From: Candidatus Lustribacter telmatis
GTDB lineage: Bacteria > Vulcanimicrobiota > Vulcanimicrobiia > Vulcanimicrobiales > Vulcanimicrobiaceae
Direction of reading: 5' to 3'
Assembly: GCA_003164045.1 (NCBI GenBank)
Contig: PLRU01000093.1
Span: forward strand, 58,166-122,165
Length of the DNA: 64,000 nucleotides
Part shown: in pieces, positions 17,500 through 46,462 of the stretch
Numbering within the stretch: position 1 is the first letter of the stretch
Layout: every line of letters starts with the position of its first letter
Translations under genes and position numbers: made by a program
Notes under the pieces: model-generated
Database searches by the model: none
Told to the model about the DNA's origin: nothing
Seen by the model: the letters and a program-made list of their open reading frames with translations, nothing else

Positions 17500-18222
17500 A
17501 TGGATCTCCATCCATCGGCAAGTGCATACCACGGCGGGAATACGATTCTCGATCGGCTCGATCGATCCGAACGAGAAGCATTATTGCCGCACTTGCACGT
17601 GTTCGACGAAGAAGAATCGAACGTCATCCGAACGCGCGGTCAGCCGATTGAGGCCGTGTATTTCCCGATCGATGCCGTCTATTCGGTCGTGGTGGAACTC
17701 TCGCAAGGCCATACCTACGAGGTCGATGTGATCGGGCGCGGCGGCGTGGTTGGCGCGGAACTCGCGATTGGCGCCCATCGCGCATTGCGCACGGTGTTGT
17801 GTCAAGCCGGCGGACGCGTCGCGCAATTACCGAGCGAATATTTCAAAGAGACGCTTACGCGGGATAAGTCATTCTTCCTGAGCGTGAGTGAATCGCTGCG
17901 CCGCCAGTGGTTCGATAGCCAGCAAACCGTTGCGTGCAATTTCGTCCACACGCTCGAGCAGCGCGCAGCGCGATGGATTCTCATGACGCAGGATCAAAGC
18001 GGCCGCGACTGCTTTCCGATGCGCCGGGAGTATCTCTCCATCATGCTCGGTCTCACTCCGGCGAAGGTGGGCGAACCGCTCGCCGTGCTCGAGCAGCTCG
18101 ACTGCATCCGCTACGAAGACGAACACGTCACGGTCACGTCGCGCGAGGCGCTGCACGAGTACGTTTGCGAGTGCTACGACCTCCAGATGATCGTGCCGCT
18201 GAACCGCGATGGGAAGCCTTGA
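17500..18222 (+). CDS. Crp/Fnr-family transcription regulator
   Basis: A 240-residue protein with an N-terminal cyclic-nucleotide-binding-like beta barrel (residues about 20-130, AVYFPIDAVYSVVVELSQGH) and a C-terminal winged helix (REYLSIMLGLTPAKVGEPLAVLEQL). There is no N-terminal Fnr-type cysteine cluster. The barrel lacks the RxS cAMP signature of CRP, so the effector is unknown. The last codons overlap the -35 box of the following SOS-controlled gene. Upstream GGAG lies 12 bases before the ATG. Confidence 0.9.
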   Translation: MDLHPSASAYHGGNTILDRLDRSEREALLPHLHVFDEEESNVIRTRGQPIEAVYFPIDAVYSVVVELSQGHTYEVDVIGRGGVVGAELAIGAHRALRTVLCQAGGRVAQLPSEYFKETLTRDKSFFLSVSESLRRQWFDSQQTVACNFVHTLEQRAARWILMTQDQSGRDCFPMRREYLSIMLGLTPAKVGEPLAVLEQLDCIRYEDEHVTVTSREALHEYVCECYDLQMIVPLNRDGKP

Positions 18223-18247
18223 CAATCGAACATATGTTCGATATTAT
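18219..18247 (+). promoter_or_regulatory. SOS (LexA) box filling a consensus promoter
   Basis: TTGACA at 18219, a 17-base spacer and TATTAT at 18242 form a near-perfect sigma-70 promoter. The spacer and its edge consist of the 18-bp perfect palindrome ATCGAACATATGTTCGAT (18225-18242). This contains CGAACATATGTTCG, which fits the Bacillus/Actinobacteria LexA consensus CGAAC-RNRY-GTTCG. Bound LexA would block RNA polymerase directly. The predicted transcription start is about 18254, only a few bases before the ATG at 18257. Confidence 0.9.
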
Positions 18248-18256
18248 CGGGCTCCG

Positions 18257-19021
18257 ATGCCAGTCGACCCGGCGTTCGCCGCCCTCCGTGAGGCCCTAGA
18301 CCAGCGTCACCGCGACGCCTCGGCGGCCGCGTTTGCCCTCGGCGAAGACGAGGTGCTGCGCACGGGCCTCTCCGAGCTCGACCGTATCCTCGGCGGCGGT
18401 TTCCCGCGCGGAACGATCGCCGCGCTTGAGGGCGCACCCAGTTCCGGCCGCAGCGCGCTCGCGGCGCGGCTCTTGGCGGTGGCAACCGGCCGCGGCCTCG
18501 GCGCGCTGATCGGCACCGACCTCTTCCCGCCGGCCCTGGCCGCGGCCGGCGTGCGGCTCGAACGGCTGATGTGCGTGCCGGTCAGCGATCCGGTCGGCGC
18601 AGCGCGCGCGGCCGACATCGTGCTGCGCTCGGGTGCGTTCAGCGTGGTGGTGATCCCCGCGCTGCCGAGCGGCCGCGGTACGGGTTCGGCGACGTGGACA
18701 CGGCTGGCGAGTCTCGCGCACCGCGCTAACGTTTTGCTCGTTGCGGTGGGTGTGGAAGCATCGAGCGAACTGCGCTACTTCGCCTCGGTGCGGCTCGAGA
18801 CGGCGATCGAACGCGTGCGCTGGAACGGCGCAAGCGGACATCTCTGCGAACTCGCCGGCTACGACATCCGCGCGACGGTGCGCAAACACAAACGCGCCGC
18901 ACCAGGTGCGAGTACGATCATCACGTGCCTGCCGTTCGAAGATCGCCCCACCTTAGTCGCCGTCCGTTCGCGCGAACTTGCCGTGCAGGCACCGCCGTTG
19001 CGTGTTGTGTCGACGGCGTAA
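18257..19021 (+). CDS. RecA/ImuA-like SOS-controlled ATPase-fold protein
   Basis: A 254-residue RecA-core protein resembling ImuA/SulA-like (COG4544) members of the ImuA-ImuB-DnaE2 mutagenic translesion system. Seen: TGLSELDRILGGGFPRGTIAALEG leading into a P-loop, GAPSSGRSAL, in which the Walker A lysine is replaced by Arg; a hydrophobic Walker-B-like strand FSVVVIPALP; and ANVLLVAVG. The replaced lysine suggests weak or no ATP hydrolysis, as reported for ImuA proteins generally. Start ATG 18257 has no RBS and is probably leaderless from the SOS promoter. No imuB or dnaE2 follows, which is odd. Confidence 0.8.
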   Translation: MPVDPAFAALREALDQRHRDASAAAFALGEDEVLRTGLSELDRILGGGFPRGTIAALEGAPSSGRSALAARLLAVATGRGLGALIGTDLFPPALAAAGVRLERLMCVPVSDPVGAARAADIVLRSGAFSVVVIPALPSGRGTGSATWTRLASLAHRANVLLVAVGVEASSELRYFASVRLETAIERVRWNGASGHLCELAGYDIRATVRKHKRAAPGASTIITCLPFEDRPTLVAVRSRELAVQAPPLRVVSTA

Positions 19022-24050: not shown

Positions 24051-24383
24051 CCGGTCGCGGCACGGGATCAGTGTTCGTTCGGGTCTTTGACCGCTGGAAT
24101 TGTCTGGATCTCGACACCGATGTTGTGGCCATTTTGCCGCTGGACACGAACGATGTACACATTTTCGATAATATCTCGCGTTGCCGGATCGATACTGATC
24201 GAATCTCGTGGACTCTCAAACTGCATGCCGCGCGCAAGTGCGAGCGTTTTGTCGGGATCCAGGTTTCCGCCCAGCCTCTCGGCGATCGCATAAATCGCGT
24301 TCATCACATCGAAACCGGCGACATCTGCGAAGCTCGGCACCTCCGTTTCGCTACCGTACGCTTTTCTAAAGGCACGGACGAAC
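24051..24383 (-). pseudogene. Truncated copy of a LivK-type SBP gene
   Basis: About 333 bases are nearly identical to 28222-28554, the 3' end of the intact SBP gene at 28239. The encoded tail (FADVAGFDVMNAIYAIAERL to the final VKDPNEH) differs from the intact protein at only a few residues. Identity starts 17 bases beyond the stop codon and ends abruptly upstream at GACGAAC, where an in-frame TAA follows. There is no start or signal peptide. It is a partial duplication, not a functional gene. Confidence 0.9.
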
Positions 24384-28011: not shown

Positions 28012-28238
28012 CACCGAGTGTTTGCCGGTACGTGGAGGGTTGCCTGTCGCCGGCGCGTCGCCGAGTTCGAGCGGAATGCCCGCCAAGGCGCGGGCGTAGG
28101 CTCGGCTACGACCACACCATCCGCGTGTAACGCGCGCTCGCGCTCACCAAAAACGTCGCGCCGTCCTCGTGGATGGAGCCGTCGGCATTGAGACCCCTCG
28201 CATCGAGGTACGCGAGGCGCACCGGTCGCGGCACGGGA

Positions 28239-29429
28239 TCAGTGTTCGTTCGGGTCTTTGACCGATGGAATTGTCTGGATCTCGACACCGATGTTGTGGC
28301 CGTTTTGCCGCTGGACACGAACGATGTACGCATTTTGGATAATATCTCGCGTTGCCGGATCTATACTGATCGGACCTCGTGGACTCTCAAACTGCATGCC
28401 GCGCGCAAGTGCGAGCGTTTTGTCGGGATCCAGGTTTCCGCCCAGCTTCTCGGCGATCGTATAAATCGCGTTCATCACATCGAAACCGGCAACGTCTGCG
28501 AAGACCGGCACCTCAGTTTCGCTCCCATACGCTTTCCGATAGGCGCGAACGAACTTTCGATTAAGCGCCGACTCATGCGTATACGTATAGTTCGAGGCAA
28601 ACGTCAGCCCGAGCGTTATGTCGCCTATTGAATCGAGGTCTGACTCCGAGACGAGACTACCCGTCGAGAGAATTTTCGTACCGTCTTTTATAAGGCCGGC
28701 CGTTGCAGCAGCCTTGAGCATTTGCAATCCGCCGACATAGTTGAAAAAGCCATAGAGCGCTTGCGCCTTCGAATCGCGAACTTTTTGAATGTAGGCTGAA
28801 AAGTCTTGATTCGTAAGAGGAACGCGAGCCTCGCCCAAAATGCTCCCACCTTCGGCTTCGAACGAACGTCGAAACGCCGACCCTGCATCAATACCGGGGC
28901 CGTAATCTTGATACATGAGGTAAGCAGTTTTCATCCCATTCTGATACGCCCATTTTGCGAATGGAACCGTAAGTTGCGCCGTAGTAAAACCGAAGCGCAC
29001 TGTATATGGATTCTTGGCAATGATGCCCGACGTCGCTGCATTGACAATGAAGAACGGCTTCTTTGCTTGTGTCGAAACGTCGGCGATCGCGATAGCATTC
29101 GGAGTTGTCGTGGCGCCGATCAAGATATCGACATTTTCCTGAATAATGAGTTCTTGCGCCATACGGCGCGCGATCTCTGGAGCAATACCTGTGTCGTCGC
29201 GCTTCACGATCAGAATTTTACGTCCGGCTACCCGGTCGCCGTGCAGCGTCATGTACGCCTTTATCGCTGCGTCGAGACCCCGGCCGATATATTCCGGCGC
29301 GCCCGTGTACGAGTAGACAACACCGATTTTTAAAGGCAGCGGCTCGGCGCGAGCATCGCTGTACGCGAGGCACACCATGACGACCGTTAGTGACAAACAG
29401 GCAAAACGGCGCCAGCTAAACCACTGCAT
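28239..29429 (-). CDS. LivK-type solute-binding protein, parent of the 24-kb fragment
   Basis: About 396 residues starting at MQWFSWRRFACLS, with a classic signal peptide ending at SDARA-EP. Mature protein opens KIGVVYSYTGAPEYIGRGLDAA and keeps the Peripla_BP_6 fold to VKDPNEH. ATG 29429 overlaps the end of the Rieske gene by 14 bases, so the two are cotranscribed. Codons and base composition are less GC-rich than in flanking operons. The last third is duplicated near-identically at 24051. No transporter partner genes nearby. Confidence 0.9.
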   Translation of the reverse strand: MQWFSWRRFACLSLTVVMVCLAYSDARAEPLPLKIGVVYSYTGAPEYIGRGLDAAIKAYMTLHGDRVAGRKILIVKRDDTGIAPEIARRMAQELIIQENVDILIGATTTPNAIAIADVSTQAKKPFFIVNAATSGIIAKNPYTVRFGFTTAQLTVPFAKWAYQNGMKTAYLMYQDYGPGIDAGSAFRRSFEAEGGSILGEARVPLTNQDFSAYIQKVRDSKAQALYGFFNYVGGLQMLKAAATAGLIKDGTKILSTGSLVSESDLDSIGDITLGLTFASNYTYTHESALNRKFVRAYRKAYGSETEVPVFADVAGFDVMNAIYTIAEKLGGNLDPDKTLALARGMQFESPRGPISIDPATRDIIQNAYIVRVQRQNGHNIGVEIQTIPSVKDPNEH

Positions 29430-30732
29430 GCGTTTCGCCCTTATGCGTTTCGCGCAGCGTCTCAAAATCAGCGATCTCACTCAAAACCGCAACGGCACGA
29501 ACACGATAGAGCGCAGCGTCATATGGTGCTCGTGGTTCGATCCCGTTCTGTAATTCGCGGGCCAAGCGTAAGAGCATCCGCCGAGTCATGATGCCCGCTC
29601 GATCGGAGGCTACGAGATGTTCGCGCGAGCGGTCGACGAGCCGGCCTGGACCATGGCCGAAGGCGCTCGGCATGTTTTCTTGTAGGCACCGATCTTGATC
29701 GTTTACGCCGCGGATCCCCGTGAACGTCTCAGCGCGCTGAACATCGCGCGAAATCTCGTAGTCGTTTTCGCGATTTGCGCGCGGCAAATAGGTGTCGATA
29801 ATCGTGCCGTCCGGCATGCCGTACGACACGCGATCACGCAGCGGAGGAAAGAAGCCGCCCTCCTCGATACTGTCGATCTCATCCTGCGTGAATGGACGAT
29901 CGAGGCGATAGAGGTAATTAAATGTCATGACGTGATGATCGTCAACCGGTACCCAAGCGCGACCGTGAAGCATGTTCGTCCCGGAAATGAGGCTGTAGAA
30001 TGGCAAGAGCCAGTGTGTGGTGCGCCAGTAAAATTGATCTTCGCCAGACGTTCGGCGAGCGCCATAGAAGATGCCGTAGTCTGTTTCGCAGCCCTCCAGC
30101 ACGGGTGCGCCATCCTCTTGAATCGCAACAAGGCCAGGCGTTATGCCGCTAACCGGAACTTTCAGGCCACGGTGCAAGAACGTCAAATGCGAGCTGTCGA
30201 TTTCTCCCTCGAGGCCCTGCGCATAGTTACTCCGTTGCAGCCAACGTGATAAGTGCACGTGTCCCGCCGGTAAGGACGTCCATTCCAATTCCGGAACGAC
30301 AGCCTCAGCGTGTTTTGGGCCGAGGTTTACCCAAATCATGCCACCAACTTCGCGCGTCGGATACGAGGTGATGCCGACTTGCGGCTTCATTTTTTCGGCC
30401 CCCGATTTATCGACGTTCGGGATATCGACGCAGCGGCCGTCGACATCGAACTTCCAACCGTGATAGACGCATCGAAGCCCGCATTCTTCGTTTCGGCCGA
30501 AAAATAGCGGTGCAAGCTTGTGAGAGCAATATGGTTCGACTATACCAATCCTGCCGTCGGAATCGCGAAACGCCAAAAGATCTTCCCCGAGAAGTCGCAG
30601 CCGTAGCGGGGGTCCGTCGCTCACAACTTCAGATGAAAGTGCGGCAGGAAGCCAAAAGCGACGGAACAGCTCACCCATCGCGGTGCCCGGCCCGGTTTGC
30701 GCTAATAGCGCGTTGTCATCGTTAGAAAGCAT
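29416..30732 (-). CDS. Rieske non-haem iron aromatic oxygenase, large subunit
   Basis: A 438-residue oxygenase. The Rieske [2Fe-2S] site is CSHKLAPLFFGRNEECGLRCVYHGW (CxH...CxxH). The mononuclear iron site is in EGEIDSSHLTFLHRG (Asp, then two His). Length and motif context resemble the phthalate 4,5-dioxygenase/phenoxybenzoate dioxygenase branch, which works with a separate reductase and includes aryl ether cleavage and demethylation enzymes. No reductase is adjacent. Followed in the same operon by the SBP. Substrate unknown, an aromatic acid or aryl ether by context. Confidence 0.92.
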   Translation of the reverse strand: MLSNDDNALLAQTGPGTAMGELFRRFWLPAALSSEVVSDGPPLRLRLLGEDLLAFRDSDGRIGIVEPYCSHKLAPLFFGRNEECGLRCVYHGWKFDVDGRCVDIPNVDKSGAEKMKPQVGITSYPTREVGGMIWVNLGPKHAEAVVPELEWTSLPAGHVHLSRWLQRSNYAQGLEGEIDSSHLTFLHRGLKVPVSGITPGLVAIQEDGAPVLEGCETDYGIFYGARRTSGEDQFYWRTTHWLLPFYSLISGTNMLHGRAWVPVDDHHVMTFNYLYRLDRPFTQDEIDSIEEGGFFPPLRDRVSYGMPDGTIIDTYLPRANRENDYEISRDVQRAETFTGIRGVNDQDRCLQENMPSAFGHGPGRLVDRSREHLVASDRAGIMTRRMLLRLARELQNGIEPRAPYDAALYRVRAVAVLSEIADFETLRETHKGETHAVV

Positions 30733-30864
30733 GATTTCTCCAACGCGTTGAACAGAGAAAACGCGTATGCCATGGAAGTATCAGATGCCCGACCAGTTCC
30801 GTCAAGGCTATTCGCACGCAGAGAACTGTTTTTCTTCAACGTGGAAACTTTTAGGGAGTGAGCA

Positions 30865-31665
30865 TTGAGTCGAGCTGTAGCGGAAGAACCGTATCCGGTC
30901 CGATCGCTTGCAAAGGGCCTGGAGATATTACTCCTCTTCAAGAGCCCGGACCATCCGGTTCGCATCACGCAAGCGAGTCAGACACTCGGCATTTCTCCAT
31001 CGACAACACACCGATTATTATCAATGCTGCGTTCACGTGGATTTGCGCGACAAGATCCGAAAACGCACGCTTACTATGCAGGGCCAGCATTACTCGGTCT
31101 TGCTCAGTCTCTTCTTGAAGAGGGTGCGCTCTGCCGCGCCGCGCAGCTAGAATTGGAAACACTGGCGACACGTAGCCGCGAAACAGTCGTGCTAGCGGTG
31201 CTTCGCGGGAGCGAAGCGCACGTTATCGTCTCAGTAGAGAGTCCTGAAGCGCTACGCGTCGCACCGCTGCCGTGGCGATTCGGTGTTCCGGCGTACGCAA
31301 CTGCGGCCGGCAAAGCGTTGCTTGCCGAGTTGTCCCGATTACAAGTCCGTCGACTCTACTCAAAACCGAAGTTAGATGTACGGACTGTGCATACCATCGC
31401 CAAGCGCAGCGAGCTGGAGCGCGAACTCATAGAAGTTCGCAACTGCGGCTACGCGACGAGCTTTGGTGAAACAAATCTTAACGTCAATTCCGTTTCACTA
31501 ATAATCCGCGGATCAAAAGGGGAAGTGTACGGAGCACTCGGGTTACTGTGTCCGTCGCAACGCTTGCCGCGGGAGCGGGTCGTCGGCATGTTAGACGTTC
31601 TGAGGCGAAGCGCGGGCGTCATCGCGCGCCGCCTCGAGGCGTCGCTCTTTACCAACATCGACTAG
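30865..31665 (+). CDS. IclR-family regulator
   Basis: A 266-residue protein with an N-terminal winged helix (RSLAKGLEILLLFKSPDHPVRITQASQTLGISPSTTHRLLSML) and a C-terminal GAF-like effector domain (AYATAAGKALLAEL, TSFGETNLNVNSVSLIIRG). The TTG start at 30865 is supported by AGGGAG eight bases upstream. It is divergent from the Rieske-SBP operon (133 bases between starts) and is its likely regulator. IclR proteins commonly respond to aromatic acids. Confidence 0.92.
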   Translation: MSRAVAEEPYPVRSLAKGLEILLLFKSPDHPVRITQASQTLGISPSTTHRLLSMLRSRGFARQDPKTHAYYAGPALLGLAQSLLEEGALCRAAQLELETLATRSRETVVLAVLRGSEAHVIVSVESPEALRVAPLPWRFGVPAYATAAGKALLAELSRLQVRRLYSKPKLDVRTVHTIAKRSELERELIEVRNCGYATSFGETNLNVNSVSLIIRGSKGEVYGALGLLCPSQRLPRERVVGMLDVLRRSAGVIARRLEASLFTNID

Positions 31666-31816
31666 CGGCGACGATGTCACCGGACGGCATCGCGTGACCT
31701 CACGGTCAGCAGGGCGACGTTTATCGGATCCAGGCGGCGTCGCGCGTGAGAGGTCTGCAAGATGGCGTTCGGCCCTGGCGCGTTTCGGCACGGTCATCGA
31801 CGAAAAGAAGCCTAGC

Positions 31817-32656
31817 ATGAGCGGCACTACGACCGGACCAGCTTGTGGCATGCGATCGGACGGCGGCCGCGAACGAGACGGCAGGGAATGGGCAATCGTC
31901 CCCGCACCCGATACCGCAGTGACGCATCAGACTCAGAGCGCCGGAATCCAGTCTGTCGAGGTCGGCGTTTCAGTGCTGCACGCGCTCGCCCATTTCGGGC
32001 GGCCGGCGACGCTGGGCCAAATCGCCTCTCAGGCCAACATGCAGCCGAGTAAAATCCACCGTTATCTGTCAAGTTTCGTTCGCACCGGTTTCGCGCAGCA
32101 GACCGAGAGCGGCGAGTATGAATTGGGACCGGCGTTGCGCCGCTTGGGCTTTCTCGCCATCCGGCAGAGCGATCCGTATCGCATCGTTGCCGAGCGAACC
32201 GCCCGGCTTCGCGAGGCCAATGGTCACACGGTATTCCTTGCCGTTTGGGGCGACGCCGGCGTCACGATTGTACGCTGGCTAAACGGCGTCGATGCACCAA
32301 TGATCAGCTTCCGACTCGGTTCCACGTTGCCACTGCAACGCTCCGCGACCGGCAGACTCTATCTCGTCTACCTGCCAAAAAAAGTCACCGCGCAATTGCT
32401 CCAGCGCGAGCCTCCATTATCGAACCTCTCAGCGAAACTTGAAGAGATCCGCAGTTCCGGCTTTTCCACGTCGGTCGATGAGATTCTGCCGGGCGTGCGC
32501 GCCTTCGCTGCCCCGATTTTCGGCGCTGAAGGCGACTTGTTCGCATCCGTTACGGTGCTCGAGACAGGCAGCGCGGGGAGGTCTGACTCGGAAATCGTCA
32601 GGGACCTGCTTGTCGCCACGGCTGAAGCATCCGCCGACGTCGGGCATAACAGCTAA
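31817..32656 (+). CDS. IclR-family regulator, second copy
   Basis: About 279 residues from ATG 31817; the ORF is open further upstream but with arginine-rich shadow-type sequence. Winged helix: SVEVGVSVLHALAHFGRPATLGQIASQANMQPSKIHRYLSSFVRTG. Effector domain: PMISFRLGSTLPLQRSATGRLYLVY. It precedes the two tandem SBP genes and a Rieske gene by 70 bases in the same direction, with an operator-like dyad between. It is only distantly similar to the IclR at 30865. Confidence 0.9.
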   Translation: MSGTTTGPACGMRSDGGRERDGREWAIVPAPDTAVTHQTQSAGIQSVEVGVSVLHALAHFGRPATLGQIASQANMQPSKIHRYLSSFVRTGFAQQTESGEYELGPALRRLGFLAIRQSDPYRIVAERTARLREANGHTVFLAVWGDAGVTIVRWLNGVDAPMISFRLGSTLPLQRSATGRLYLVYLPKKVTAQLLQREPPLSNLSAKLEEIRSSGFSTSVDEILPGVRAFAAPIFGAEGDLFASVTVLETGSAGRSDSEIVRDLLVATAEASADVGHNS

Positions 32657-32690
32657 GACTTGCCACGGCGTGGATAAAAGAGTAGAATTG

Positions 32691-32709
32691 CGTTCACTAT
32701 AGGTGAACG
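32691..32709. promoter_or_regulatory. Operator dyad before the SBP-SBP-Rieske operon
   Basis: CGTTCAC-tatag-GTGAACG is a perfect 7-bp inverted repeat with a 5-base centre, 16 bases before the first SBP start. A third half-site-like ACGTGAA follows at 32719. The neighbouring IclR gene at 31817 is the natural candidate to bind here; not proven. Confidence 0.7.
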
Positions 32710-32725
32710 TATTTACTTTACGTGA

Positions 32726-33922
32726 ATGGATGGGAAGACGGTGAATTTGCTCAGCACCGCGCTCAAAATTGCCCTCGGAGTCCTACTGGCATTGACGTCC
32801 ACCGTCGCGCGGACCAATGCCGCGCCGTCGGCACCGCTCACGATCGACGTGGTCTTGTCGATGACGGGCGCGGGTGCAACTCTCGGAAAGGACGAGTCGC
32901 TAGCATTTGCGATTTTCGAAAAGACGAGCAACGCTAAGGGCGGCATCAACGGGCAGCCGGTGCACTTCGAGATCCATGACGACGCAACGAATCCGCAGGT
33001 TGCCGTTCAACTCGCAAGCGCGATTCTCGCGCGAGCGCCGGCGGTGTTCATGGGCTCATCGTTGGCAGCGAGTTGCGCTGCAATGGCGGCGCTCGTACCG
33101 CAGGGCCCGGTGCAGTTCTGCCTCTCTCCCGCCTTCGAGCCCAAGAATGGAGCGTACACGTTCGGTGCCGGCGGTTCGGTCGGGTACCTGCTTCCCGCGT
33201 CGTTCAACTACATCCGCAACGGAGGCTATACGCGCGTTGCGAGTATCGCCACGAGCGACGCCTCCGGGGTTTCGGGTGAGCGCAGCATGGACGATGCGAT
33301 CGCGCTTCCTGAGAACCGCAACATCAAACTTGTCGCACGGGAACACTTCGCCGTTGGCGATATCAGCGTGGCGGCGCAGATCGCGCGTATAGCCGCCTCC
33401 GGTGCGCAGTTAGTTTTTGCCTTTACGACTGGATCGGCACTCGGGACTGCGCTTCATGGTTTGAACGATGCTGGAATGAATCTGCCAGTATTTGCTACTA
33501 CGAGCGCAATGAACGTCCAGCAGCTCGCGAGTTACGCAAGTTTCATACCAAAGGAACTTCTTTTTGCGAGCAATGTGTTCATTGCGCCGGCACGGGGCGG
33601 AATCTTACGGCCGGTGCAGCAAGAATTCGGCGAAGCCTTTAAAGCGGCGGGGACCCCACCGTCACCGCTCCACTCGTACAGCTGGGACGCTGCGCTCATC
33701 GTTGTCTCAGGCTTGCGTCGCCTTGGCACGAACGCGACTGCTTCGCAATTACGCGCCTATATCGAGCAACTTCACGACTTTCCGGGCGTCAACGGCATCT
33801 ACGACTTCCGCATTGGCGATCAGCACGGCCTTACCGCCTCGTCGGTCGTGGTGTCGCGCTGGGACCCCAAGCTGGCGTATTGGATTCCGGTGAGCGACGG
33901 CGGCGGGGCGCCGCTTCGATGA
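32726..33922 (+). CDS. LivK-type solute-binding protein, subfamily member 1
   Basis: A 398-residue periplasmic receptor. Signal peptide near LKIALGVLLALTSTVARTNA-AP. Mature motifs: VVLSMTGAGATLG, GGINGQPVHFEIHDDATNPQVAVQLA and the subfamily's C-terminal signature GVNGIYDFRIGDQHGL...VSRWDPK. The same signature appears in the SBPs at 33919, 38178 and 57457, so these four are paralogues of one subfamily. Its stop overlaps the next SBP start (ATGA). No ABC partner genes. Confidence 0.9.
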   Translation: MDGKTVNLLSTALKIALGVLLALTSTVARTNAAPSAPLTIDVVLSMTGAGATLGKDESLAFAIFEKTSNAKGGINGQPVHFEIHDDATNPQVAVQLASAILARAPAVFMGSSLAASCAAMAALVPQGPVQFCLSPAFEPKNGAYTFGAGGSVGYLLPASFNYIRNGGYTRVASIATSDASGVSGERSMDDAIALPENRNIKLVAREHFAVGDISVAAQIARIAASGAQLVFAFTTGSALGTALHGLNDAGMNLPVFATTSAMNVQQLASYASFIPKELLFASNVFIAPARGGILRPVQQEFGEAFKAAGTPPSPLHSYSWDAALIVVSGLRRLGTNATASQLRAYIEQLHDFPGVNGIYDFRIGDQHGLTASSVVVSRWDPKLAYWIPVSDGGGAPLR

Positions 33923-35088
33923 GAGCGCTCGTTTCGATTGTCGCCGCACTGCTGCTTATAGCAATCGTTTGCGAACGCACAGCTGACGCCGAGGGACCGC
34001 TTATCATCAACGTCGTCTTGCCGATGACGGGACCTGCCGCTTTCTTCGGAAAGACCGAAGCGGAAGCGCTCGCGGTCTACGAACGGTGGATCGACCGGTC
34101 GGGTGGCGTTCGTAAGCGCGCGATCCACTTCGTCGTCGCCGACAGCCAAAGCAGTCCGCAAGTAGCGGTGCAGCTGGTGAATGGCCTCTTAGGAAGCCGC
34201 CCGTCGATCATAATGGGTTTCGCGACAAGCGCTGAAGCCGGCGCGGTCGCCCCACTCGTTCCGAACGGTCCGGTCATCTACTCCTTTTCGCCGGTGGTGC
34301 AGCCAGCGCCCGGCAGTTACGTGTTCGCAAGCTCGGTCTCGGCCGGCTATCTGATTCCGGTAGCTATTCGCTATGCCCGGGACCGCGGATATCATCGCAT
34401 CGCCTTGATCGACTCCACCGATGCGACGGGACAAGAATCAGACCGTATCGTTCTGCAGGCGATGGCCTTGCCGGAAAATCAAAGCCTTAGCCTGGTCGCG
34501 CACGAGCGCTTCAACCCGTCGGATGTGAGCGTCGCGGCGCAAATCGCCCGTATGCAAGCCGCCGCTCCAGACCTCGTGATTACGTTCGCCAACGGCAGCG
34601 CCTTTGCAACCGTGATGCGCGGGCTCCTCAACGGCGGCCTCAATGTTCCGGTTGAAGCATCGGCAGCGAACATGAACTACGACCAACTCGCGCAACTCAA
34701 TGACGTCTTGCCCAAGGACTTGCTCTTCAACGGGTTCCGTTATCAGGAATCAGGCAACGTGCAAGGCCCTCTCCGTCAGAAGATTGATGACTTCTATGCT
34801 GCCTTTCGTGCGGCCGGCATTCGTCCGTCACCGCTGCACCTTTTCGCCTGGGATCCCGCCGATGTCGTGGTTTACGCGCTTCGCCAGCTGGGACCTGACG
34901 CCACGGCCACCCAGTTGCACGATTTTCTCGAGACGCTCCATGGGTTCGTCGGACTCAATGGGGTCTACGACTTCCGCAGTGGCAACCAGCATGGGCTGAG
35001 CGACTCCGCCGTCATCATGGTGCGCTGGAACCCAAAGACGACCCAATTCGAGCAAGTTTCTGATCCGGGCGGTCGCGCAAAACGCTAA
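33919..35088 (+). CDS. LivK-type solute-binding protein, subfamily member 2
   Basis: About 389 residues from ATG 33919, four bases inside the previous gene. Signal peptide MRALVSIVAALLLIAIVCERTADA. Mature motifs VVLPMTGPAAFFG, SSPQVAVQLVNGL, DSTDATGQESDRIVLQAMALPEN and the tail GLNGVYDFRSGNQHGL...VRWNPKT. A tandem duplicate of the preceding gene, now well diverged, suggesting different ligands. A Rieske oxygenase follows 33 bases later. Confidence 0.9.
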   Translation: MRALVSIVAALLLIAIVCERTADAEGPLIINVVLPMTGPAAFFGKTEAEALAVYERWIDRSGGVRKRAIHFVVADSQSSPQVAVQLVNGLLGSRPSIIMGFATSAEAGAVAPLVPNGPVIYSFSPVVQPAPGSYVFASSVSAGYLIPVAIRYARDRGYHRIALIDSTDATGQESDRIVLQAMALPENQSLSLVAHERFNPSDVSVAAQIARMQAAAPDLVITFANGSAFATVMRGLLNGGLNVPVEASAANMNYDQLAQLNDVLPKDLLFNGFRYQESGNVQGPLRQKIDDFYAAFRAAGIRPSPLHLFAWDPADVVVYALRQLGPDATATQLHDFLETLHGFVGLNGVYDFRSGNQHGLSDSAVIMVRWNPKTTQFEQVSDPGGRAKR

Positions 35089-35121
35089 TGCGCCGAAATC
35101 TACCTAGCGAAGGAGCACCAG

Positions 35122-36285
35122 ATGCAATCAACTGAACGCCCGGCTCGAATCGCCGCGAATGCGCATCACGGCGCCGATCTCTCCCACACCGGCCCCGATA
35201 CACCGGCCGGGCGCTACTATCGGCGTTTTTGGGTGCCGGTTGCGGAGCTTGAGAGCATCAAGCCCGGTCGCGGAAAATCTGTGGTCGTTATGGGCGAGCG
35301 CGTCACCGTCTATCGTGGTGAGTCCGGGGTGCCGCATGTCATTGCGAACCTCTGCGCGCATCGCGGGACGCGCTTGTCTACCGGCTGGATAGAGGGCGAA
35401 TGCATCCGCTGCGTCTACCACGGGTGGCTGTACGATGCGCAGGGACAGTGCGTCGAGCAGCCCGGCGAAACAGCGGGCTTCGCTGACAAAATTCGCGTCC
35501 GCAGTTACCCGACGCAATCGTGGGTTGGCCTGATATTCGCTTATTTCGGCGAGGATGAGCCGCCTCCGCTTCCGCAGCCGGGCGAATGGCAGAAAGCGAG
35601 TCTCGTCGAGAACCGAAACTACCTGCGCCAAAGCAACTATCTGAATTCGCGCGAGAACGGGTCGGATTGGCTCCACGTGCGCTTCACGCATCGCCGATCA
35701 GCCTTCACAGACGCTGGCTTCAACCGCGAAATCCCCGAGTACGATGCTGTCGAAACTGACTACGGTATCCGCGGTTACACACGCTTCAGCGACGGGAAGT
35801 ACAACGTGCATCACATTCTGCTGCCATTCATGTCGTACAATATTATTTTCGATGACGTCGCCGGTTGGGTGAAGCAACTAGGTTGGCGGATACCCATCGA
35901 CGACGAAAACACACAGAACTACACTGTGCGTCTGATCGAAAAATCGGGACCTGATCTCGACCGTTACTTAGAAGATCGACAGAGGTATCGCGACGCTGCC
36001 AAAGACCTACCGCCGGCCCAATTTTATGTCGATGCTTGCTTGAACGGCGAGATGCATGTCGATGAAGTGCCGCTACATCATCCGCAACTTGTAAACATTC
36101 AAGATGCGGTCGTGTTGAACGCCCAGCCCGCACTACACGACCGGGACGACCGGCTGGGTCGATCGGACGTCGAGGTGATTCTTCTGCGCAAACTCTTAGC
36201 GCGCGAGATACAGGCCAATGAATTGAATCAGCCTGTAAAGAGCTGGCAGTGGACGGAAGAACAGGTTGTCGAAACGGGCATTTAG
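35122..36285 (+). CDS. Rieske non-haem iron aromatic oxygenase, large subunit
   Basis: A 387-residue oxygenase. The Rieske site is CAHRGTRLSTGWIEGECIRCVYHGW. The iron site is read as NSRENGSDWLHVRFTH (Asp...His....His), an unusual sequence around the ligands but with conserved spacing. GAAGGAG precedes the ATG. It is the third gene of the SBP-SBP-Rieske operon. Substrate and reductase partner are unknown. It differs strongly from the Rieske protein at 29416, so it is not a recent duplicate. Confidence 0.9.
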   Translation: MQSTERPARIAANAHHGADLSHTGPDTPAGRYYRRFWVPVAELESIKPGRGKSVVVMGERVTVYRGESGVPHVIANLCAHRGTRLSTGWIEGECIRCVYHGWLYDAQGQCVEQPGETAGFADKIRVRSYPTQSWVGLIFAYFGEDEPPPLPQPGEWQKASLVENRNYLRQSNYLNSRENGSDWLHVRFTHRRSAFTDAGFNREIPEYDAVETDYGIRGYTRFSDGKYNVHHILLPFMSYNIIFDDVAGWVKQLGWRIPIDDENTQNYTVRLIEKSGPDLDRYLEDRQRYRDAAKDLPPAQFYVDACLNGEMHVDEVPLHHPQLVNIQDAVVLNAQPALHDRDDRLGRSDVEVILLRKLLAREIQANELNQPVKSWQWTEEQVVETGI

Positions 36286-36623
36286 CGTAATCAGAGGCCT
36301 GCCCGCGCGCTTCGCTTAGGTAAAATATGGCGCGTTCGTCCGACGGGCACTGGCCAACGGTGCGTGCGGGACGAGTCCGAATCAGCTTTGTCGCGCTCCA
36401 AGGGGCGACCACGTTGGTGTTGCGGCCGCCGGTATCGCGGACGGAAGTTACGCACCCGCACGATCGAGACGGGCGAAAACAACTCGAAAAACTTGTCCTC
36501 ATCAAACGCAAATGCACGCTGAATATGCGAGTGTCGGGCTATCCTCGAGCGTCCGCGCCTTAGCCGCGTGACGGCGAGCCGCTTGAGCGCATCGCCTGTA
36601 AAGCCGTGAGGAGGTCCACTAAA
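36286..36623. other. Spacer without a recognisable gene
   Basis: About 340 bases after the Rieske gene. Short ORFs in the track on both strands overlap one another and none has a good RBS or a recognisable motif. Possibly decayed coding DNA next to the tRNA remnant. Confidence 0.45.
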
Positions 36624-36767
36624 ATGTCTACTTCGCCCCCGCAACAGGCCGCATTAACTGGCATCCCAGAAGCCGGTCCCAGGACAGACTTGGTCTATTT
36701 TGTGGAGGGCTCGCAGTCATCCGCATGCGAGTATAACGGGTTCGACTCCCGTTGGGGCTACCAATAA
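36624..36767 (+). CDS. Truncated gene start running into a tRNA remnant
   Basis: ATG at 36624 has a strong RBS (GAGGAGG) and opens MSTSPPQQAALTGIPEAGPR. The frame then runs through the tRNA 3' fragment (GFDSRWGYQ) and stops at TAA right after CCA. The good RBS and natural-looking N-terminus suggest a real gene whose body was replaced when tRNA-derived DNA was joined. AALTGIPE faintly recalls the start of some SAM methyltransferases; this is weak. Confidence 0.4.
   Translation: MSTSPPQQAALTGIPEAGPRTDLVYFVEGSQSSACEYNGFDSRWGYQ
36729..36763 (+). pseudogene. tRNA 3'-end remnant (T arm, acceptor strand and CCA)
   Basis: ACGGG-TTCGACT-CCCGT is a perfect T arm, followed by the acceptor strand TGGGGCT, the discriminator A and CCA. 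The matching 5' acceptor strand (AGCCCCA), D arm and a normal anticodon arm are not found upstream, where protein-like sequence lies instead. A 3' tRNA fragment is the usual scar left by an integrative element using a tRNA gene as attachment site. The amino acid identity cannot be read. Confidence 0.65.
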
Positions 36768-36791
36768 AACTTCGCTACGGCGGGGTTTTTT
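36766..36791 (+). terminator. Rho-independent terminator after the tRNA remnant
   Basis: AAAACTTCGC-TACG-GCGGGGTTTT is a 10-bp stem (two T-G wobbles) with a four-base loop, running into a T-run that ends at 36791. It starts three bases after the CCA end, the normal place for a tRNA terminator, so it probably moved together with the tRNA 3' end. Confidence 0.85.
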
Positions 36792-36971
36792 CTGTGTCCA
36801 TGGCGGAAATGGTCACAATTCTCGTCATAACGTCTCTGCTGTCCGGCTTTTGAGTCGCCAGCCCAGACGCGTAAACGACGCCAAGAGTGTTCATGCGAGC
36901 TTGGCTCGTCGCGAGACGACGTGCTCGTGCATATACATTTCCAGCTCGTCGGCGAACACAGCCGCCTGGAC

Positions 36972-38159
36972 TCATGCCGGCATTATTTCCAAGGTAAGCG
37001 GGAGGCGGGCGAACCCTCGCAAGGAGTTGTTGATGGCGCGCTCAGGTGCGGTAACGGAAAAACGCTTGACTCGCCTCGCAAGTGACAACAGCAGGGTTCC
37101 AATTTCGAGGCGGGCCAGCGGCATTCCCAAACAAACGTGCGCGCCATGTCCAAACGCTAGCTGATCGCTCGCGTCGCGTTTGATGTCAAATCGCTCCGGA
37201 GCGTCCCAATGCCGCTCGTCGCGATTAGCCGACCCATACATGATGAGGACACGGGAGTCGGCCGGCACGACGGTATCGCCGACCATCACATCTTCCGTGA
37301 CGTAACGTGTAAAAAACTGGACCGGAGCCTCGATGCGTAACACTTCCTGCACGGCGTTCGGTATGAGCGCCGGATCATCGCGGATTGCGTCCCACTGATC
37401 GGGATGCTTCGCAAAAAGCCACAAAGCGCTTGTCGTCGCATTGATCGTCGTGTCCAAGCTCGGGCCGACGTAGTTGGACATCTCGCGAGCGCATCGCTCG
37501 AGTGGTATCTCGCCCCGCTCGCCGGCCTCATAGAGCTGTGCACCCCAGCTACCCGGCGCCAGCTTTCCGGGCACCGCCGTGGTCCGCATGTACTCCATCA
37601 TTTCCATGCGCAGAGCCGTTCCAGCCCGCGATCGCTCATTGTCAGGTCCGCCGGCGTTGAAGCCGGCGGCGCCCCATTCAAGCATGCGTTCACGGCCCTG
37701 TTCGGGCAGGCCGACGAGCGTTCGAACGACGGCAAGCGGCAAGTGCCAAGCGAGGTCTCGAACTCCGTCGAACTGGCCGAGCGCGGCGACTCGCGAAGCG
37801 ACGGCCTCCGCCTCAACGGTTATCGTGTCGCGGAGTTGGCTCATCGCCTGAGTGCCTAACGGCCGGCCGATGATTTTTCGCAAAGCAACGTGCTCCGGTC
37901 CATCGCTCGTCAGGAGTGAGCCGCGATTCAGCTCGTTGCTGCGCTCATTCATGCCGACGCCGTGTGCGGATGAAAACACGCGCCAATTTCGCAGCGCGCT
38001 GCGCACGTCGTCGAAGCGAGGAAGCGCCAACACGCCATACTGTTTCAACGCCACGACTGGTGCCAAATCTCGCAGCACGCGATAGTTGTCAAAGGGATCC
38101 AATAAGGAGCTCTCCGACCAAAGATCGATCCCGGACTCAGCCAGCTTGGTATTTACCAT
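36972..38159 (-). CDS. Cytochrome P450, CYP199-like aromatic acid monooxygenase
   Basis: A soluble bacterial P450 of about 395 residues. The haem-binding loop is FGHGAHVCLGMPLARLE, the K-helix ExxR is in EVLRIEAPVQFFTRY, and the oxygen-activation helix carries GPSLDTTINATTSAL. Overall spacing and the tail NNSLRGFARLPLTLEI resemble CYP199A enzymes, which demethylate 4-methoxybenzoate and related aromatic acids. No ferredoxin or reductase gene is next to it. It is the last gene of the methyltransferase-SBP-P450 operon. ATG 38159 or the adjacent GTG 38162. Confidence 0.88.
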   Translation of the reverse strand: MVNTKLAESGIDLWSESSLLDPFDNYRVLRDLAPVVALKQYGVLALPRFDDVRSALRNWRVFSSAHGVGMNERSNELNRGSLLTSDGPEHVALRKIIGRPLGTQAMSQLRDTITVEAEAVASRVAALGQFDGVRDLAWHLPLAVVRTLVGLPEQGRERMLEWGAAGFNAGGPDNERSRAGTALRMEMMEYMRTTAVPGKLAPGSWGAQLYEAGERGEIPLERCAREMSNYVGPSLDTTINATTSALWLFAKHPDQWDAIRDDPALIPNAVQEVLRIEAPVQFFTRYVTEDVMVGDTVVPADSRVLIMYGSANRDERHWDAPERFDIKRDASDQLAFGHGAHVCLGMPLARLEIGTLLLSLARRVKRFSVTAPERAINNSLRGFARLPLTLEIMPA

Positions 38160-41184: not shown

Positions 41185-41741
41185 CGTGCCCCTACTTGCC
41201 AAGGCGAGATCGGATTGACCTAGCGGCCGAGATTACATCGTCCTCATCTCGGGACTGAGCGTGCAAGCTGCTGCAAGGACGGCGTTGCTCTCTTTTAGGA
41301 GCGGGCAAAAGCCGTAACGGTCCGATATCGTGATTGTGGGCGGCTCGTAGAGCCTCGACGTATCGCCTCCGGGTGTCCCCGGCACGGTGCTGGGCGCGAT
41401 TTTGCAGGTAGGCGGCTTGGCTACCCAATTGGCTACCTAACAGCCGGAAAGCGGACCTCGTAGCTCGGGACAGAGAATTGCAAAAACCGATCAAACAACG
41501 GCTTTTCCGGATACAACCCAAGTCATCGGAGCCGGAAAATAGAGTTCGAATCCCGTTGCTATTCTCGAAGCGATTGAGACCTTGCACTCTAAGCACTTAG
41601 GTGGTCGGTAAGGAGGACATTACCGAACGCGCCTCCGCCAGGCCCAATCTGAGATAATTCGCGGAACCTAGCGGCCAGTGCATAAACCCGCCATCACCAA
41701 GGGACGCTCGTGAGGCCCTCACGAATTACGTAGGCGAGTCG
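41185..41741. other. Long spacer, no gene recognised
   Basis: About 550 bases. The minus-strand ORF of 134 residues at 41192 has no RBS or motif and looks like noise. There is a hairpin (GAAAATAG...CTATTCTC, 41535-41566) around TTCGAATCCC. That resembles a tRNA T loop, but the flanking bases do not pair as a T stem. The stretch may be decayed mobile DNA between the LysR gene and the repeat at 41742. Confidence 0.45.
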
Positions 41742-41798
41742 TGTGCTTTATCGACCCGTTTGCTGAGCAATGGCGACTACACCGTTTCGCTAAGCACC
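41742..41798. repeat. Dispersed palindromic repeat, copy B
   Basis: GTGCTTTATCGACCCGTTTGCTGAGCAATGGCGACTACACCGTTTCGCTAAGCAC: left arm GTGCTT, right arm AAGCAC, with the shared core. The right part lies inside the 3' end of the FAD hydroxylase gene and supplies its stop codon. Confidence 0.85.
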
Positions 41799-43333: not shown

Positions 43334-43738
43334 TATCGGCCACTCCCTGCACCGTCGTTTGTCGCGCCCTTGCGCGATCCGGTCGACAACAACACTCGCA
43401 CGCCCCTGTCCCTAACCTCAGACGAGCATTATGCGGCACGACCCGGGGCTTGCGGCAAGCCCCCCTGCCTGGTGTAAAATGAAAGTGGTAAGTGGTGCTT
43501 TACGAACCCGTCTGCTGTGCGATTGCGACGATACCGTTACGGTAAGCACCTTGCCAGCGCCGCTCGGCCCCCAGCGGCGAAGCCGGACACGCTGGCTTTG
43601 CAGCCGGCTTCATGCTCGCGGGTTCGCCAAGCCGACTAGAAAGACCGGAGGCGGGGCGGCGTCCGCTCCAATTGGTTCACGGTTTGGTTTCCGGGTACAG
43701 GGGAGCCGCTTGAATACTTTCCGGCCCGGTCGCTAGAC
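43334..43738. other. Spacer containing repeat copy C
   Basis: About 400 bases between divergent genes. Apart from the palindromic repeat at 43494-43550 and GC-rich short hairpins (GGCTTGCGGCAAGCC at 43447), I see no gene. A promoter for the downstream NAD-binding protein is not evident. Confidence 0.5.
43494..43550. repeat. Dispersed palindromic repeat, copy C (best copy)
   Basis: A 57-bp unit starting GGTGCTTTACGAAC and ending GTTACGGTAAGCACC. The two ends are inverted copies (GGTGCTT perfect, then a slipped TACG/ACCG and AAC/GTT). The core is CCGTCTGCTGTGCGATTGCGACGATACC. It should fold into one long hairpin as single strand. Confidence 0.88.
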
Positions 43739-45202: not shown

Positions 45203-45316
45203 TCTGCTTGCGCGACGTGACGCGCGATAACATACGATCCGGGCCATCTCAAAGAGTCACCTCGCCAGCAGACTGACGGAATCGAAGCCGGACCAGCGAA
45301 GTACTAGCTGGAGCGC

Positions 45317-45369
45317 GTGTGCTTAGCGAACCCGTTTGCTGTGCGATGTCGACCACACCGTTTCGCAAA
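45317..45369. repeat. Dispersed palindromic repeat, copy D
   Basis: CGTGTGCTTAGCGAACCCGTTTGCTGTGCGATGTCGACCACACCGTTTCGCAAAA: complete left arm and core. The right arm loses the AAGCACC end and reads CGCAAAAAGAG. It lies 17 bases before the stop of a converging small secreted protein gene. Confidence 0.82.
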
Positions 45370-45928: not shown

Positions 45929-46462
45929 CTACTTCGGCCTGGTCAACGACTTAACGAGAATGACACTGCCGTAGGTCTTCCCTTCCCAATGGACACGGTC
46001 AATGAACTCGTAACCGCATCGCGAGTAATAGGCTCGCAAGTCATCCGCATGCTCCGCGGTGTCGCAAGCGATGAAGTTGCAGCCGGCCCGAGCAGCAAGC
46101 TCTTCTAGCCGCGACAACAATTCGAAGCCGACACCCTTGCCCTGGAGCCGCGGCTCAACAGCAAATTGGGAAAAATGCGAACCGCCGTTTTGACAATAGA
46201 CCGCAGTACGCGATTTGCGTAATGGAGTGAGGTAGACTGTTCCCGTAGCAACAATTATTCCGTCAATCAATGCGATGACCGTATCGCCACGTTGTAAGCG
46301 CTCAAGCGTAATATTATCGTGTTGAGTGGCCGCGGAATAGTTCCAACCCTTTTCCGCGAGTGGGGCATAAGCTCGATGAAGGAGCGCCGTGATGGACGAG
46401 ATCTCGTGATGGGGGAAAGCAAAACCCGCTGGTCGATGTTCCCAGACGATTGCCGAATCCAC
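45929..46462 (-). CDS. GNAT-family N-acetyltransferase
   Basis: About 177 residues from a GTG at 46462; the track ORF extends upstream into the divergent LLM gene region and is unlikely. The acetyl-CoA motif A is QFAVEPRLQGKGVGFELLSRLEELA and motif B is YYSRCGYEFIDRV. Substrate unknown. GC content lower than neighbours. Confidence 0.82.
   Translation of the reverse strand: MDSAIVWEHRPAGFAFPHHEISSITALLHRAYAPLAEKGWNYSAATQHDNITLERLQRGDTVIALIDGIIVATGTVYLTPLRKSRTAVYCQNGGSHFSQFAVEPRLQGKGVGFELLSRLEELAARAGCNFIACDTAEHADDLRAYYSRCGYEFIDRVHWEGKTYGSVILVKSLTRPK

Follow-up and report, generated by a model that had tools for sequence, protein, structure and literature searches.

How does the 3′ end of a tRNA gene, complete with CCA and terminator, come to lie inside an island of mostly catabolic genes when no tRNA 5′ half precedes it? 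The locus in question lies in a stretch of 64,000 nucleotides (the window) on contig C47 of a fragmented draft genome (G000; 5.0 Mb in 102 contigs, with an estimated contamination of 6.84%). The initial annotation had proposed that it is the scar of an attachment site, left when an integrative element crossed over in a tRNA gene and one of its ends was later joined to other DNA, and that it closes a block of lower GC content. Here we consider the remnant itself, the DNA on either side of it, its counterparts in related genomes, and the island in which it is found.

The remnant and its parent tRNA

The features at and immediately around the remnant are the following:

36611–36735, + strand: conserved element end, resembling an attP arm, 76% identical to its counterpart in the congener G001
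36624–36767, + strand: 47-codon open reading frame that reads through the remnant, probably not a gene
36736–36763, + strand: tRNA-Glu 3′ remnant (T arm, 3′ strand of the acceptor, A73, and CCA), recognized from its sequence and from the match of its core
about 36766–36791, + strand: terminator hairpin, directly 3′ of CCA
36801–36817, + strand: TGGCGGAAATGGTCACA, candidate integrase-side end of another element, with copies on contig C37 and on contig C235 of G001

The T arm, acceptor strand, CCA, and terminator that had been described are all found at 36736–36791. The T stem is formed by ACGGG (36736–36740) and CCCGT (36748–36752) on either side of the T loop TTCGACT (36741–36747), and it is followed by the acceptor 3′ strand TGGGGCT (36753–36759), A73 (36760), and CCA (36761–36763). 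The tRNA 5′ half is likewise missing, as had been claimed, in that no convincing candidate for it was seen and a covariance-model search found no complete tRNA here; indeed, Infernal with the tRNA models of Rfam gave no match over 35000–38000, even at E ≤ 5. No other RNA family had a credible Rfam match at the remnant, near-hits to istR and RsmY being rejected in that both rest on the terminator, and no second copy of a 23-nt query taken from the remnant was present in the window when three mismatches were allowed (chance expectation, 0). The remnant is probably without function today, although it may serve as a secondary target.

ARAGORN calls an 89-nt tRNA-Ala(CGC) at 36675–36763, which raises the alternative of a real but divergent tRNA with a long variable arm. 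The anticodon loop of this call looks canonical, but the acceptor contains wobble pairs, the anticodon stem contains a mismatch, and the D arm is weak. Similarly, ARAGORN made calls in only 5 of 1,000 sequences in which the upstream part was randomized and the T arm kept, but it is silent at the G001 copy, in which neither the 5′ acceptor strand nor the D arm is conserved, and the covariance models have no match at the site. With no Rfam tRNA and an unconserved 5′ part, we regard the call as a false positive and give a genuine tRNA-Ala almost no credence.

A 25-nt core of the remnant, ACGGGTTCGACTCCCGTTGGGGCTA (36736–36760), has a single further occurrence in its own genome, where it is found, exactly, in an intact tRNA-Glu(CTC) gene on contig C88 (92880–92952; L009 19845–19917). 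Thus, the search for a matching intact tRNA elsewhere in the genome, which the initial annotation had put forward as a check, was successful. The intact gene is located directly after tRNA-Gln, and the contig ends 83 nt beyond it, too soon for an adjoining integrase gene to be read. From the contig end an antisense frame is open into the tRNA, as is the case for the integrase gene beside tRNA-Glu in G007, a weak hint of an integrase at the C88 tRNA. No other contig of the assembly could be joined to C88 by overlap of their ends, and the C88 tRNA and the window fragment are conceivably, if not provably, the two ends of one element. The C88 gene, the only intact tRNA-Glu(CTC) found in the genome, does not encode CCA (TATAT stands in its place), in which respect most relatives differ from it.

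The open reading frame was correctly described as running into the remnant and stopping right after CCA (36624–36767). Its interpretation as a truncated gene is weakened: differences between the window and G001 are spread evenly over the three codon positions (12/9/12), in a comparison of two copies, which are too few to settle gene status. A genuine gene, small or truncated, that is joined to the remnant would be compatible with a scar, and its ATG, preceded by a Shine–Dalgarno-like sequence, is matched in G001, with an amino acid identity of 50% over 36 residues. The middle of the frame is unrelated between the two genomes, however, and the frames part near the core; moreover, no Pfam family matches the product, and a search of 60 genomes gave no longer homologue. 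We consider such a gene improbable and, judging from these alignments, the open reading frame is most likely element-end DNA that by chance reads open.

Element ends and a hotspot at tRNA-Glu

Over about 125–130 nt, the DNA upstream of the window fragment has 76% identity to that preceding a lone fragment on contig C136 of G001, and the 16-mer TCGCAGTCATCCGCAT (36711–36726) occurs exactly only at the window and G001 fragments among 25 genomes. In G001, the 3′ end of a broken integrase gene extends over the fragment; it exhibits 48% identity over 117 aa to the integrase of G007, and the fragment with its element end is likewise on a contig without a tRNA. Arms related to that of the window are also found at three of the four fragments of an array in G010. 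When the element end together with the core was used to scan a collection of genomes of 84,980 species, from which the window's own genome may have been left out, the only genome returned was the congener G001 (Candidatus Eremiobacterota isolate bog_1524). Given the upstream arm that the two genomes share and the broken integrase gene of G001, we therefore take the window site to be an element end. Meanwhile, TGGCGGAAATGGTCACA has a second copy on C37, where it closely follows a lone tRNA-Glu fragment at a similar distance, and an imperfect one, with mismatches, on C235 of G001. Because the motif is common to these flanks, the window junction may join two elements, so that, as far as sequence comparison goes, the site would be either an attR or an element–element junction. 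Near-copies of the element-end motif at 46031–46052, inside a GNAT gene, and in G009 are gapped or mismatched and were treated as chance.

The window's own genome thus contains a further lone tRNA-Glu fragment, that on C37 (L026 8338–8360), which is located beside another cluster of genes for solute-binding proteins, Rieske oxygenases, and IclR regulators. Near it is a gene for a 707-aa protein (L026 8785–10908) with no Pfam or PHROGs match.

In relatives of the window's genome (Eremiobacterota) the genes 5′ of tRNA-Glu(CTC) are conserved, and those 3′ of it vary from genome to genome. Tyrosine integrase genes, or pieces of them, adjoin or lie near tRNA-Glu(CTC) or tRNA-Glu(TTC) in G007, G011, G015, and G018, and adjoin lone tRNA-Glu fragments in G001, G006, G013, G015, and G024. 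The unit in G007, for example, extends over about 6 kb and consists of tRNA-Glu, an integrase gene (457 aa, with its stop codon at the tRNA end), a gene for an excisionase-like helix-turn-helix protein, an AAA ATPase gene, and then a lone 3′ fragment. Lone tRNA-Glu 3′ fragments are frequent among the relatives, and of the 15 that share a contig with an intact tRNA, 14 are found within 50 kb of that tRNA, 3′ of it and in the same orientation; these include four from G010 and three from G015. Exact identity between a fragment and the host's own tRNA over 23–29 nt was seen in 13 of 14 comparisons, the window included, and extends to host-specific variants; same-strand 3′ fragments that match the host tRNA exactly are the signature defined by Islander (PMC4383910). 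In several genomes the block common to fragment and tRNA starts at or near TTCGA, which suggests that crossover may take place in the T loop. These findings show that the tRNA-Glu genes of both isoacceptors are integrase-occupied hotspots in this family of Eremiobacterota.

The array in G010 (C12, 219–269 kb; L124, L050, L049, and L048) spans 49 kb and comprises one intact tRNA-Glu(TTC) gene with four 3′ fragments on its strand; it is an unusually long tandem island array.

The island around the remnant

The larger features of the window are the following:

18209–19021, + strand: imuA-like (RecA-fold) gene, left border of the insertion as judged from synteny
19022–64000, no strand: part of an insertion of about 57 kb that lies within the window, from synteny with G001, G006, and G009
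28239–36285, no strand: low-GC3 catabolic cluster (solute-binding proteins, Rieske oxygenases, and IclR regulators)

Synteny of C47 with G001, G006, and G009 extends as far as the imuA-like gene, and the next gene that is syntenic with G006 and G009 is that for an imuB-like Y-family polymerase, at about 76.4 kb in window numbering. The imuA-like and imuB-like genes are adjacent in G006 and about 3.4 kb apart in G009 and are split here by about 57 kb of mostly catabolic cargo (Rieske oxygenases, solute-binding proteins, IclR regulators, a P450, and flavin monooxygenases). No convincing direct repeats were found at the edges of this insertion. The remnant is located about 17.7 kb inside the island (19.0–76.4 kb) and so does not close it; nor does it end the lower-GC block at 28–36 kb, as had been supposed, since GC3, which is lowest at 28–36 kb, remains low to about 38.2 kb.

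There is no integrase gene near the remnant, the whole assembly having three tyrosine recombinases and C47 none, and no tRNA is present in the 95 kb that are available upstream of it on C47. In G009, about 1.1 Mb separate tRNA-Glu(CTC) from the region adjacent to imuA. With no tRNA in the 95 kb upstream, the fragment has therefore probably been displaced from its tRNA, a secondary move being the simplest account.

Two kinds of repeats were seen within the island. A direct repeat of about 330 bp (24051–24350 versus 28222–28521; 94%) corresponds to the 3′ end of the solute-binding-protein gene at 28239–29480, a truncated copy of which lies 4.2 kb away. In addition, three related intergenic repeats of 54 nt (41740–41793, 43492–43545, and 45316–45369) are spaced at about 1.8 kb and are 74–81% identical to a reference copy.

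Origin of the junction and comparison with known islands

The matching tRNA-Glu(CTC) gene, the family-wide occupation of this hotspot by integrases, the shared element end, and the placement of the remnant in an insertion away from any tRNA all support the proposal of an attachment-site scar. Very probably, the remnant is a displaced tDNA fragment, the scar of an element whose tyrosine integrase is directed at the T arm of tRNA-Glu. Elements of this kind bring along a copy of the tRNA 3′ end, which upon integration completes the tRNA gene, whereas the original 3′ end, with its CCA and terminator, comes to lie beyond the opposite end of the element. The window would then hold this far-side junction, consisting of the conserved element end, the core, CCA, and the terminator, possibly with the integrase-side end of a second element next after the terminator, as in tandem arrays. 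A later rearrangement would have taken the junction and neighboring catabolic cargo into the island of about 57 kb between the imuA-like and imuB-like genes. Of this scheme, we infer the crossover in the T loop, the element–element junction, and the later move. What is new is the bacterial family and the unusual location, not the mechanism, which is well established.

Two other origins were weighed against a displaced scar. An intact attP inside the island, which entered by homologous or illegitimate recombination and was never a chromosomal attR, would exhibit the identical order of element end, core, CCA, terminator, and integrase-side motif, and would also fit with the lack of a tRNA nearby. 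We nevertheless consider it rather unlikely, in that the remnant has no integrase gene left beside it and a search around the island did not turn up the element ends a second time. A chimera of assembly, with a false join in the contig at the remnant or close to it, is suggested by the fragmentation and contamination of the draft, but the shared core is just 25 nt, synteny places the two borders of the island on one contig, and the congener has the same element end and fragment, again on a contig without a tRNA; misassembly is thus a very slim prospect.

A more speculative idea, which we hold to be quite improbable, is that the element end with its tRNA-Glu 3′ piece is a portable secondary attachment site at which integrases stack catabolic cassettes. 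If true, the portable site would be a slow system for collecting cassettes, built from displaced tRNA ends and operating away from any tRNA. The displaced scar has implications of its own. Both isoacceptors of tRNA-Glu are documented here as a heavily used hotspot in a family of Eremiobacterota, with rare multi-island arrays; the footprints of integration can lie far from the tRNA, where they would be missed by island finders that call for a tRNA close by and an integrase; and displaced footprints offer a route for tracing the spread of catabolic genes in mostly uncultured soil bacteria.

Finally, we compare the locus with known systems, a literature search on tRNA islands in the phylum Eremiobacterota having found nothing relevant. 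Islander looks for a 3′ fragment of a tRNA gene that is present on the same replicon, an intact tRNA upstream in the same orientation at 2–200 kb, and an integrase gene inside the island (PMC4383910). Like the tDNA islands so defined, the window contains a 3′ tRNA fragment, with CCA, that matches a tRNA of its own draft genome exactly over 25 nt; the fragment lies outside any conserved protein domain, the open reading frame being without a Pfam match; a conserved element end adjoins the core; and tyrosine integrases are found at that tRNA in relatives. Unlike those islands, it has its intact tRNA on another contig rather than in the 95 kb upstream, no integrase gene lies between the two (such genes are found inside the islands of relatives such as G007), and the fragment lies within an island at a different locus. 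Arrays of three or more tandem islands, of which Islander reported only 4 in 2168 genomes (PMC4383910), are represented among the relatives by G010 (four fragments at tRNA-Glu(TTC), three of them with arms related to that of the window) and G015 (three at tRNA-Glu(CTC)), whereas the window has a single fragment with no adjoining tRNA. The window scar is a fresh instance of a known phenomenon, in an uncommon, ectopic location and in a little-studied host family.
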